From positions 62,001-126,000 of the forward strand of contig VIRH01000105.1 of NCBI GenBank assembly GCA_008107755.1: a DNA stretch of 64,000 nucleotides. Direction: 5' to 3'. The number at the start of each line of letters is the position of its first letter. The stretch's first letter is position 1. Position numbers and translations under genes: made by a program. Under the pieces are notes generated by a model. That model made no database searches, was not told where the DNA came from, and saw only the letters and a list, made by a program, of their open reading frames with translations. This DNA comes from Rhodobacterales bacterium (GTDB lineage: Bacteria > Pseudomonadota > Alphaproteobacteria > Rhizobiales > Stappiaceae). Below, piece by piece: positions 7,827-42,599 of this stretch.

Positions 7827-8918
<1,092 letters not shown>

Positions 8919-23398: not shown

Positions 23399-24486
23399 CC
23401 GAAAACACCACCGATAATCATTTCCGCATCCTGCTGGTCGAGGATGACCCGACCAATCGCATGATCATGGAAAAGCTCATCGCGAAAATCCCGAATTGCC
23501 AGGCGATCAGCTTCGCGGATCCCGTTGCCCTGATCGCTGAAATCGAGACCTGCCGGTTCGACGTCGCCATTATCGATTACCAGCTTCCGAACCTGAACGG
23601 GGTTGATCTGATCCGGCTCATTCGCAAGTACCCTGCTCATGCGGACAAGCCCATCGTCATGGTCACGGCGGATCGCGATACGGACAGGCGTCTGGAGGCC
23701 ATTACAGCTGGTGCCGTTGATTTTCTGAACAAGCCGGTGGAAGTGGTTGAATTCAAGGCGCGGGTCATGAACCTGACCCGCCTGGCGGATGCTCAGCGCA
23801 GGCTGTCGGCCCAGGCCGACATGCTCAAGCACGAGGTCGAGCAGGCAACTGCCGAGGTCCGGGCTCGCGGCGAAGAAATCGTGCACCGCCTCATCCTCGC
23901 CTCCGAATACAAGGATTTCGGCACGGCGATGCACACGATGCGCATGGCCCATTTCTGCGACCTGATTGCAGGTGAGCTTGGCGTCGGAGAAGAGCTGCGC
24001 ACGGATATCAAGCTCGCGGCACCGATGCACGACATCGGCAAGGTCGGCATACCCGACCGGATTGTCCTGAAGCGTGGTCCCCTGACTGATGAGGAACGCA
24101 AGGAAATTAACCGGCATACTGACATCGGTGCGAGCATCCTGCACGGATCCAACTGCCGCCTGCTGCAGGTCGCTGCAGAAATTGCCGCGACCCACCACGA
24201 AAGGTGGGACGGCACCGGCTATCCAAAGGGCCTGCGCGGCGAACAAATCCCGCTCGTCGGCCGGATCGCCGCCGTCGCCGACGTCTTCGACGCCCTTACG
24301 ACGGATCGTCCGTACAAGTCGGCCTGGACAAACGATCAGGCTTTCGACTTTCTCGCTGACAAGGCAGGAAGCGAGTTCGACCCGACCTGCGTTGCGGCCT
24401 TTCTAAAAAGGCGCGGAGAAGTGGAAGAAATCCAGGGTCGTTTTTCCGATCAGAAACTGACCGAAACGATCAAGAGCTTTGCCTGA
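23395..24486 (+). CDS. Response regulator with HD-GYP c-di-GMP phosphodiesterase domain
   Basis: 363 residues. N-terminal receiver (about 10-130) with phospho-acceptor Asp61 (AIIDYQLPNLNG) and the Lys of LNKPVEVVE; a coiled linker; then an HD-GYP domain with HTMRMAHFCDLIA, MHDIGKVGIPDRIVLK (HD), and HHERWDGTGYPKGLRGEQIPL (HHE, GTGYP). HD-GYP enzymes hydrolyse cyclic di-GMP to pGpG/GMP, lowering the sessility signal. RpfG-like architecture. The ATG overlaps the kinase stop by 4 nt, strongly implying that the kinase HPt phosphorylates this receiver. No DNA-binding domain. Confidence 0.93.
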   Translation: MTENTTDNHFRILLVEDDPTNRMIMEKLIAKIPNCQAISFADPVALIAEIETCRFDVAIIDYQLPNLNGVDLIRLIRKYPAHADKPIVMVTADRDTDRRLEAITAGAVDFLNKPVEVVEFKARVMNLTRLADAQRRLSAQADMLKHEVEQATAEVRARGEEIVHRLILASEYKDFGTAMHTMRMAHFCDLIAGELGVGEELRTDIKLAAPMHDIGKVGIPDRIVLKRGPLTDEERKEINRHTDIGASILHGSNCRLLQVAAEIAATHHERWDGTGYPKGLRGEQIPLVGRIAAVADVFDALTTDRPYKSAWTNDQAFDFLADKAGSEFDPTCVAAFLKRRGEVEEIQGRFSDQKLTETIKSFA

Positions 24487-24520
24487 GGCAGTTCAGGCAA
24501 GACAAAATTTCGATCAGTGC

Positions 24521-24549
24521 TTGCACGTGTCAAGGTGATGCCGTATGAA
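24521..24549 (+). promoter_or_regulatory. Candidate sigma-70-type promoter of the leuA leader
   Basis: TTGCAC (24521-24526), a 17-nt spacer, then TATGAA (24544-24549). A transcript from here would carry the leucine-rich leader peptide and attenuator. The hexamers are reasonable but not consensus. Confidence 0.35.
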
Positions 24550-24648
24550 CAATTCTCGTTAACCGTCGGGTGACGCTTTTGCTGCACCCTGATCGGACGC
24601 TCTGAAAAGACGACCTGTTTAGAGACGACTGAAGGCCAATTGAAACCC

Positions 24649-24750
24649 ATGATCGCGCCACGCGACATTTCCGGTTCAGATATCGACGCGCAGCCCTTGC
24701 GCGGCGGCCTTCTCCTACTTGGCGATCTCCTCCTTCTTAGATGCCCCTGA
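24649..24750 (+). CDS. leuL: Leucine-rich leader peptide of leuA (attenuator)
   Basis: A 33-codon open frame starting ATG ATC GCG and ending in LRGGLLLLGDLLLLRCP before TGA: nine leucine codons among the last 17 residues, in two blocks of four (CTT CTC CTA CTT and CTC CTC CTT CTT). It lies 142 nt upstream of leuA. Such codon runs are diagnostic of ribosome-mediated attenuation: scarcity of charged leucyl-tRNA stalls the ribosome in the run. The segment at the stop codon can pair with the 5' half of the downstream terminator (see next feature). The ribosome-binding site is weak (GAAGG, 12 nt upstream), so the exact start is less certain than the Leu run. Confidence 0.75.
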   Translation: MIAPRDISGSDIDAQPLRGGLLLLGDLLLLRCP

Positions 24751-24857
24751 GCGTCGGCTGATCCGCGTCAAGATTTGCGGAACGGGCACTTAGGGGAGAT
24801 AGTTTCAAAAAACGCATCACGACATCAGGATCGCGACAGGCCCCATTGCCATTTTTT
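24742..24857 (+). promoter_or_regulatory. leuA attenuator: alternative antiterminator/terminator pairing
   Basis: TGCCCCT at 24742-24748 (overlapping the leader stop) can pair with GGGCA (24784-24788) or AGGGG (24792-24796). The same GGGCA...AGGGG segment can instead pair with CCCC (24841-24844) and TGCC (24847-24850), directly followed by TTTTTT (24852-24857), forming a terminator. An inner helix CCGC/GCGG (about 24763-24780) would support the antiterminator. The mutually exclusive pairing matches the classical scheme: a ribosome stalled at Leu codons leaves 24742-24748 free and prevents termination. Paired by eye, not folded computationally. Confidence 0.55.
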
Positions 24858-24892
24858 GCACGGCCGCCGATCCAAGCCAGGGACGAAACGAC

Positions 24893-26449
24893 ATGACTGC
24901 CACCTCCGAGAAGGATCAGGTCCGCATCTTCGACACCACCTTGCGCGACGGCGAACAATCGCCCGGCGCGTCCATGACGCTGGAAGAAAAGCTGCAGATC
25001 GCCGAAATCCTCGACGACATGGGTGTCGACATCATTGAAGCCGGCTTTCCGATCGCCTCGAACGGCGACTTTGAAGCTGTCAGCGAAATCGCCAAGCGGT
25101 CCGAAAAATCCGTCATCGCCGGCCTCGCCCGTGCAATTCATGCCGATATCGACCGCTGCGGCGAAGCGGTGAAACATGCCAGACAGGGCCGCATTCACAC
25201 CTTTGTCTCCACCTCCCCGATCCATCTGAAATTTCAGATGAACAAGACCGAAGAGCAGGTGCTGGACATCATCACCGACACGGTGACCCGCTCGCGCAAC
25301 CTGATCGACGATGTCGAATGGTCGGCGATGGATGCCACCCGCACGCCGATCGACTATCTGTGCCGCTGCGTGGATGCCGCCATCAAATGCGGCGCGACCA
25401 CGATCAACCTGCCGGACACGGTCGGGTATGCGACGCCGGACGAATACAAGACCATGTTCGAGCAGATCCGTGAGCGGGTACCGAACTCCGATCAGGCGGT
25501 CTTTTCCGTGCACTGCCACGACGATCTGGGACTGGCGGTTGCCAACTCGCTGGCCGGTGTTGCCGGCGGTGCGCGTCAGATCGAATGCACCATCAACGGC
25601 CTCGGTGAACGCGCCGGCAACGCCGCCCTGGAAGAGATCGTCATGGCGATCCGCACCCGCGGTGACGTGCTGTCCTACGCGACGCAAATCGATCCGACGT
25701 TCCTGGTCCGAGCCTCCAAGATGGTCGCTGGCGCATCCGGCTTCGCCGTTCAGTACAACAAGGCGATCGTCGGCAAGAACGCGTTTGCGCACGAAAGCGG
25801 AATTCACCAGGACGGCATGCTGAAGAATGCCGAAACCTACGAGATCATGCGTCCGGAAGACGTCGGCGTGAAAGCCACGTCGCTGGTCATGGGCAAGCAT
25901 TCCGGCCGTCATGCGTTCCGCGACAAGCTGCGCGAACTGGGGTACGAGCTGGGCGACAACGCCCTGCAGGACGCCTTCCGCCGCTTCAAGGATCTGGCCG
26001 ACCGCAAGAAGCACGTCTACGACGAGGACATCGAAGCCCTGGTCGAGGACGAAATCAACGTTCTGGGCGAAGGTGCGAAGGTCATTGCCCTGACCGTGAT
26101 CGCCGGCACCGGCGGCCCGCAAAAGGCCATCCTGACCATGGATGTCGCCGGTCAGCACGTCACGAAGGAAGCAACCGGCGACGGCCCGGTGGACGCAACG
26201 TTCAATGCGATCAAGTCGATCATGCCGCATGAAGCCAAGCTGTCGCTCTATCAGGTGCATGCGGTGACCGAAGGCACCGACGCGCAGGCAGAGGTTTCGG
26301 TGCGGCTGGAAGCCGAAGGGCGCATCGCAACCGGCAAAGGCGCCGACACGGACACGCTCGTCGCCTCCGCACGCGCCTATGTCTCGGCCATGAACAAGCT
26401 GGCTTTGCGTCAGCAGACCGGCAACCCGGGTGCCCTCGCCGCGGTTTAG
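24893..26449 (+). CDS. leuA: 2-isopropylmalate synthase
   Basis: 518 residues, full length. First committed step of leucine synthesis: acetyl-CoA plus 2-oxoisovalerate to 2-isopropylmalate. N-terminal TIM barrel with VRIFDTTLRDGEQSPGASM, DIIEAGFPIAS, NLPDTVGYATPDEY and the metal motif HCHDDLGLAVANS; linker with HESGIHQDGMLKN; C-terminal LeuA allosteric domain (about 390-505) for leucine feedback inhibition. AGGGACG precedes the ATG. Preceded by a Leu-codon leader and attenuator, so transcription is likely leucine-controlled in addition to feedback inhibition. A strong terminator follows, so it is monocistronic. Confidence 0.98.
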   Translation: MTATSEKDQVRIFDTTLRDGEQSPGASMTLEEKLQIAEILDDMGVDIIEAGFPIASNGDFEAVSEIAKRSEKSVIAGLARAIHADIDRCGEAVKHARQGRIHTFVSTSPIHLKFQMNKTEEQVLDIITDTVTRSRNLIDDVEWSAMDATRTPIDYLCRCVDAAIKCGATTINLPDTVGYATPDEYKTMFEQIRERVPNSDQAVFSVHCHDDLGLAVANSLAGVAGGARQIECTINGLGERAGNAALEEIVMAIRTRGDVLSYATQIDPTFLVRASKMVAGASGFAVQYNKAIVGKNAFAHESGIHQDGMLKNAETYEIMRPEDVGVKATSLVMGKHSGRHAFRDKLRELGYELGDNALQDAFRRFKDLADRKKHVYDEDIEALVEDEINVLGEGAKVIALTVIAGTGGPQKAILTMDVAGQHVTKEATGDGPVDATFNAIKSIMPHEAKLSLYQVHAVTEGTDAQAEVSVRLEAEGRIATGKGADTDTLVASARAYVSAMNKLALRQQTGNPGALAAV

Positions 26450-41904: not shown

Positions 41905-42074
41905 GGCCGGAGAATGCGCCTAACTTCGCAGATTTTCGCGAAAACACACCCCCTTTGCCGGCATTTCCCCATCATCCTCAAGCACAGGATGAGCTTCGGC
42001 GGCAAATGAACCAGGCAACTCAAGCCCCTTTCATTTCAGGTGAAAAGCCCTTATATCAAGCGTGCTGGGCAACC

Positions 42075-42392
42075 AGCTATGGCAATAAATGGTCAGTGCA
42101 ATAAGCCTATCGGACCCGGGGGCGGTACCCGGCGCCTCCACCCAAGCCCACGAAATTTCCACCCGGAAAACTTGGGTTTCGGCGGGGGCGAAACAGGATC
42201 GACGAGGGTGTAAAGACTGTGCTTTTGCTCGGCATTGTACCACCGTTATCGGGCTTACTTAATAGTTGCAAATGACAACTATGCTATGGACAACGCTGTC
42301 GCTGCGTAACGCAGTGCCAGTCGTCCTTTAAAGCCCTGTTGGGTTAGCTCCTACAGGCGGGGTTCGGAGGCACCTGGCAACAGAAGCCTCCA
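42075..42392 (+). ncRNA. ssrA: tmRNA, circularly permuted two-piece form
   Basis: Acceptor piece first: T arm CCGGG (42116-42120) / CCCGG (42128-42132) with a 7-nt loop, then the 3' acceptor strand CGCCTCC (42133-42139) and discriminator A. The coding piece begins GGGGGCG (42184-42190), which pairs with it (one G-U), followed by AAACAGGATCGACGAGGG, the conserved D-loop region. The tag reading frame at 42268-42309 encodes ANDNYAMDNAVAA and TAA; with the charged Ala the tag is (A)ANDNYAMDNAVAA. A pseudoknot-like GGAGGC/GCCTCC hairpin closes the 3' region. GGCATTG (near 42224) can pair with CAATAAGCC of the acceptor piece. The gene does not encode CCA (A then CCC). Outer boundaries are approximate; a TATATC -10-like box lies at 42052-42057. 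Confidence 0.93.
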
Positions 42393-42599
42393 CTTACCCT
42401 TTACCTTGATGCCCACTTTCCTGTTTCCTTTGACGTCCTATGTTAGGCAGGAAAGCTCCTCGTGATGTCACCAGATGGAACATCATCCCGTCCTGCGCAT
42501 TAATCTGGTATCACTTGGAAAAGAGCCTTTTCTTTTTCGCCTCATAGCTTCAATGTGCAGCTGATAAACAAGATTCCCAGCGAGATTCGACGAAAAGCG

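Follow-up and report, generated by a model that had tools for sequence, protein, structure and literature searches.

A short reading frame crowded with leucine codons stands ahead of leuA in a Roseibium-like genome, and the question raised by this locus is how translation of that frame might govern leuA: through an intrinsic terminator, as an earlier note on the same DNA had proposed, or by another route. The window (the whole stretch of DNA that was analysed, 64,000 nucleotides) comes from a genome whose nearest named relatives are Roseibium aggregatum, Pannonibacter and Stappia, and family matches identify the leuA product as a bacterial-type 2-isopropylmalate synthase with an allosteric domain. 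The leader frame is separated from the leuA start at 24893 by a gap of 142 bases (Table 1). The ilvC gene (about position 7900), for which the lack of any such leader had been remarked, has an upstream gap of 87 nt that indeed contains no leucine frame. Elsewhere in the window, a two-piece (permuted) alphaproteobacterial tmRNA gene (42025-42394, + strand) gave a strong Rfam match.

Table 1. Features of the leuA leader region, in window coordinates
Feature	Sequence	Position	Strand	Basis or remark
leuA leader peptide, 33 codons, stop TGA 24748-24750	MIAPRDISGSDIDAQPLRGGLLLLGDLLLLRCP	24649-24750	+	ATG frame; conserved in relatives
Leu run 1	CTT CTC CTA CTT	24709-24720	+	sequence, alignment
Leu run 2	CTC CTC CTT CTT	24727-24738	+	leader comparison; final CTT nearly invariant in relatives
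P1 5' strand, proposed anti-RBS (last codon of Leu run 1 and the Gly codon)	CUUGGC	24718-24723	+	pairs with 24876-24881; co-evolution
P1 3' strand, overlapping leuA Shine-Dalgarno CCAGGGA (24877-24883)	GCCAGG	24876-24881	+	pairing
H1 5' arm, includes leader stop codon	CCCCUGAG	24744-24751	+	covariation
H1 3' arm	CUUAGGGG	24789-24796	+	covariation
H2 5' side	GUC	24753-24755	+	partner GGC 24785-24787; alignment columns 34-36 with 68-70
H3 5' side, variable upper stem	UCCGC	24762-24766	+	partner GCGGA 24777-24781
HB 5' arm, genus-level hairpin just before leuA RBS	GGAUCG	24828-24833	+	alignment
HB 3' arm	CGAUCC	24868-24873	+	alignment
T6 run, terminator tail of the earlier reading	T6	24852-24857	+	private to window genome; in HB loop
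leuA, 2-isopropylmalate synthase, controlled gene		24893-26449	+	NF002087, TIGR00973, PF00682, PF08502 matches

The leader peptide and its distribution

The 33-codon ATG frame, in which leucine takes up nine of the 17 C-terminal positions and forms two runs of four, reads as the earlier note had it, and the comparison with relatives by which that note had proposed to judge the frame came out in its favour: frame and stop-codon hairpin are kept at 30/30 loci of the genus and at most order-level leuA loci. Within the genus the ATG and the C-terminal LLLLGDLLLLRCP are conserved, this ending or a close variant closing the frame at all 30 same-genus leuA loci read (minus-strand loci having first been turned to the same orientation). 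Most of the order has the ending LLLLxxP before the stop codon, and most of 80 further loci, drawn from named Hyphomicrobiales genomes, have a Leu-rich frame that ends in xxP and a stop about 84-150 bases before leuA; the distance from leader stop to leuA start is 84-151 nt, with few exceptions. Judged by this comparison, the leader peptide at 24649-24750 is real, and the conservation of frame and hairpin is far beyond chance.

Codon choice in the leaders is unusual. CUG accounts for 15% of their Leu codons (43% in the long ORFs of the window) and CUU for 51% (21% in the same ORFs), the low share of CUG being expected from pairing with a purine-rich ribosome-binding site (RBS). The final Leu codon (codon -4) is CUU in 73/74 leaders and stands a constant five bases ahead of the stop-codon hairpin. 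At this codon (24736-24738 in the window), almost every leader has CUU and then an A, despite the existence of six Leu codons, a preference that RBS pairing does not explain at every locus. Leaders of other families (L127, L128, L129, L130, L133, L138 and L142) end in LLRL or LRL, often CTTCGACTTA, with a conserved CGA arginine codon within the Leu run in place of LLLL.

A covariance model built from the Leu run and the stop hairpin has one match in the window genome (E = 9e-15; the next is at 0.7), and matches were obtained in 105/121 sampled genomes of the order and in 67/240 of the class; in a sample of the phylum, every match fell within the same class. Of the 107 matches in the order, 100 share the strand of leuA and precede it by 51-211 nt, and each of the 30 loci inspected at class level carries leuA. 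A degenerate leader and hairpin are still visible in several genomes that have leuA but no model match. Among such loci, L157 (G069), L158 (G111) and L161 (G146) have Leu-rich leaders in which the in-hairpin stop is lost or the hairpin weakened, possibly a decay series of the element. Four genomes without the usual leuA (G086, G104, G123 and G140) have the element in front of a different, distant 2-isopropylmalate synthase. That of G086 (L153) belongs by family search to the yeast-type family (TIGR00970, NF002991), and those of G104 (L154), G140 (L155) and G123 (L156) are called yeast-type by sequence similarity to G086, the family search covering G086 only. It looks as if the enzyme had been exchanged while the switch stayed in place.

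Pairing of the leucine codons with the leuA ribosome-binding site

Co-evolution was assessed from duplex energies for all pairings among 74 non-redundant loci, cognate and mixed, with row and column effects removed before cognate and non-cognate pairings were compared and a z-score obtained by permutation. The Leu region paired with the RBS gave -1.56 kcal/mol (z = -5.7) in the first run and -1.84 kcal/mol (z = -6.5) when 25 nt of the RBS were used, with reversed-sequence controls at z = -1.0 and -2.3; these permutation scores remove shared ancestry only in part. Upstream windows (-60 to -25) gave values near 0 against the RBS across the 74 loci, and the signal is limited to leader positions -27 to -6 before the stop and RBS positions -22 to 0. 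Outside the RBS, a first-run signal of the Leu region with the intervening segment (z = -3.8) did not recur with finer windows. A held-out replicate of 29 loci, found via the covariance model, lying mostly outside the order in other families of the class and mostly representing one or two genomes per family, gave -3.1 kcal/mol and z = -6.5 for the Leu region with the RBS (controls -1.8, -1.8 and +1.3). The pairing with CUUGGC is preserved in L102-L106, where the RBS side is GCUAAG. Co-evolution of the Leu codons with the leuA RBS points to control of translation initiation.

In the window the pairing P1 is short, with six pairs of which one is G-U, and the unconstrained minimum-energy fold favours another pairing over it by about 0.4 kcal/mol. 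An extension of P1 by GAUC-GAUC was considered and rejected: GACC opposite GAUC breaks it in several members of the genus, so that P1 is claimed for the six-pair core only.

Folding with a ribosome footprint masked out bears on the same question. When the Leu run was masked, opening the RBS cost on average 1.8 kcal/mol less (lower at 43/74 loci, higher at 4/74), a stop-codon footprint lowered the cost by 0.9 kcal/mol on average, and a footprint further upstream left it unchanged across the 74 loci. In the held-out set, the decrease came to 3.2-3.4 kcal/mol for the Leu run, 2.8 kcal/mol for the stop-codon footprint and 0.1 kcal/mol for the upstream one. The effect in the window is small, from 3.1 to about 2.2-2.4 kcal/mol with the Leu run masked, and the stop-codon footprint brings the value to 1.8 kcal/mol, below that for the Leu run; in these folding calculations, this is a weakness of the model at this locus. 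Since the RBS is opened by a ribosome on the stop codon too, the leucine-replete and leucine-starved states would differ mainly by dwell time. By comparison and folding, the RBS appears to be masked by the very leader segment on which a ribosome would stall, the arrangement expected of a translational attenuator.

The element is probably a device for leucine-sensing attenuation of leuA translation initiation by RBS masking, and the comparative evidence favours translation attenuation over premature termination. We infer a common transcript for leader and leuA and, likewise, ribosome stalling, the direction in which control acts and the part assigned to the stop-codon hairpin. By default, the leader Leu-codon segment (CUUGGC in the window) would pair with the leuA RBS (GCCAGG), and P1 would close a branched structure with the stop-codon hairpin and another hairpin inside it, keeping translation of leuA low. 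Under a shortage of leucyl-tRNA, a ribosome would stall on the Leu codons and cover the segment, freeing the RBS for production of LeuA; when leucine is plentiful, the ribosome would pass and release and the mask would re-form. The stop-codon hairpin is perhaps a brake on the ribosome as it reads the final CUU, which hardly ever varies: when this triplet occupies the A site, 11 to 12 bases separate the beginning of the P-site codon from the foot of the hairpin, which puts the latter approximately at the mRNA entry of the ribosome.

Control through Rho, in which the leader ribosome releases, Rho loads and transcription stops before leuA unless a stalled ribosome blocks Rho, is an unlikely account of the element. 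It needs no intrinsic terminator, a leader of 100-150 nt leaves room for Rho, and such control has been suggested for some actinobacterial leaders (PMC1262725); nevertheless, it does not predict co-evolution of the Leu codons with the leuA RBS. Untranslated leuA mRNA would invite Rho, so Rho control could act on top of RBS masking.

The stop-codon hairpin and the terminator question

The earlier note had also pointed out that the stop region (CCCCTGAG, 24744-24751) is complementary to a downstream segment (CTTAGGGG, 24789-24796), and this pairing proved to be widely kept. In nearly all relatives the partner of CCCCUGAG is CUYAGGGG about 30 bases downstream, with 8/8 pairs in 70/74. Over 68 sequences and the 18 pairs of the hairpin, 91.7% of cells are paired, 12/18 pairs have two-sided changes (3/3 in H2), and 0/500 shuffles match these values on any measure; with the partner shifted by one base, pairing falls to about 52%. 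Compensatory changes, suggested as a check, were found where the stop codon itself differs: L082 (UAG) and L071 (UAA) have matching changes in the opposite arm. The conserved structure enclosed by P1 is a simple hairpin interrupted by an internal loop. Taken together, comparison of the loci shows the leader, the stop-codon hairpin, the co-evolution of Leu codons and RBS, and the association with leuA.

It is improbable that this hairpin is itself the sensor, as a protein- or ligand-binding RNA or through nascent-peptide arrest at Pro-stop, with the Leu run secondary. The hairpin is the most conserved part of the element and its upper stems covary, almost all leaders have Pro as their last residue, and the constancy of the last CUU would also suit such a role. 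Against this, Leu run and hairpin are equally widespread, the N-terminal sequence of the peptide is unconstrained, in contrast to arrest peptides, the Leu-rich part varies in length, and the Pro-stop ending is accounted for by the CCCC that forms the hairpin arm.

Classical transcription attenuation, in which GGGCA..AGGGG would pair with CCCCATTGCC and the following T6 to form an intrinsic terminator, is highly improbable, although the window genome does have the complementary segments and T6, and attenuation of ilv operons is established in alphaproteobacteria (Caulobacter ilvBN, PMC4117421). The putative 3' half CCCCATTGCC (24841-24850) with its T6 occurs in the window genome and is missing from all other aligned members of the genus. 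A scan of 24300-25100 predicted 0 terminators on the plus strand and two on the minus strand, and a T tract follows any hairpin in only 10/106 related leaders, mostly weakly or at differing places. Co-evolution of the 3' arm of the stop hairpin with downstream segments is nil (z = -0.04). Neither the hairpin with U tract before the first gene nor the mutually exclusive antiterminator and terminator sharing one segment, both hallmarks of leuL/trpL-type attenuators, was found. Of the ribosome-mediated attenuation first proposed, the Leu-codon leader with leucyl-tRNA-dependent stalling is strongly supported by conservation; the classical terminator mechanism falls with a terminator private to one genome.

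Other pairings were tried and discarded. A 1:2/2:3/3:4 switch of the 3' arm (GGGCnCUC) with a downstream GAGCGCCC, suggested by a few Bradyrhizobium-like leaders, gave no cognate signal across loci, and a pairing of GAUCCGC (24760-24766) with a downstream CGGAUC is lost in L084, L090 and L102. The ends of HB (24828-24873) are, by inspection, conserved in most of the genus and its inner stem is very variable. The fold energy of the whole leader is ordinary (z = -0.5).

That the frame merely feeds ribosomes to leuA by reinitiation, independently of leucine, can practically be dismissed: leader-frame reinitiation has been proposed in bacteria (PMC4833913), but the 84-151 nt from stop to start are longer than that model favours, and the Leu runs and codon choice would be left unexplained.

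Relation to known attenuators

Against all 4227 Rfam families, neither the window region nor any of seven relatives gave a leader family above the covariance-model threshold, and no alphaproteobacterial leuA leader was found in the searchable literature, whose coverage did not include the main comparative study of proteobacterial attenuators. Tentatively, RBS masking by the leader may represent an undescribed alphaproteobacterial regulator in which one stretch serves as leucyl-tRNA-sensing codons, as the leuA anti-Shine-Dalgarno and as a five-base lead to a hairpin on its own stop that brakes the ribosome with CUU in the A site, kept through replacement of leuA by a distant isozyme. If so, most Hyphomicrobiales and many other alphaproteobacteria would have a direct, terminator-free translational link by which the supply of leucyl-tRNA acts on the enzyme of the first committed step in leucine synthesis. 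The covariance model is ready for use for a family missing from Rfam, and the leuA leader illustrates why screens based on U tracts would miss such attenuators.

The enterobacterial leuL-leuABCD attenuator (the Rfam leucine operon leader) likewise has a Leu-codon leader before leuA with a stalled ribosome as sensor, and richness of the leader in the amino acid of the pathway is common to leuL/trpL-type transcription attenuators and the element; the latter differs in having no Rfam match and no U-tract terminator, and in that the partner of its Leu codons is the RBS. Attenuators of ilvIH and ilvBN in alphaproteobacteria, reportedly treated by Vitreschak et al. in 2004, share the bacterial class, the branched-chain amino acid pathway and a leader peptide, but have been described as attenuators of transcription that combine Ile/Val codons with a Rho-independent terminator, whereas the present element is at leuA and has none. 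In erm-type translational attenuation, as in the proposed scheme, a ribosome stalled on the leader frees a masked downstream ribosome-binding site; there, however, the signal is an antibiotic rather than uncharged tRNA, and the stalled erm codons are not themselves the anti-Shine-Dalgarno.

The actinobacterial LEU element upstream of leuA, in which a Leu run pairs with the Shine-Dalgarno sequence and encloses a pseudoknot, was described with its mechanism left open (Seliverstov et al. 2005, PMC1262725). Pairing of a Leu-codon run with the leuA Shine-Dalgarno, as the basal stem of a leuA leader with no terminator, is found in the alphaproteobacterial element as well, though the conserved core is a pseudoknot in the former and a hairpin on the leader stop codon in the latter. 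With a similar architecture proposed in Actinobacteria, convergence and deep conservation become testable alternatives, and the LEU element is the nearest described arrangement to the alphaproteobacterial leuA leader.
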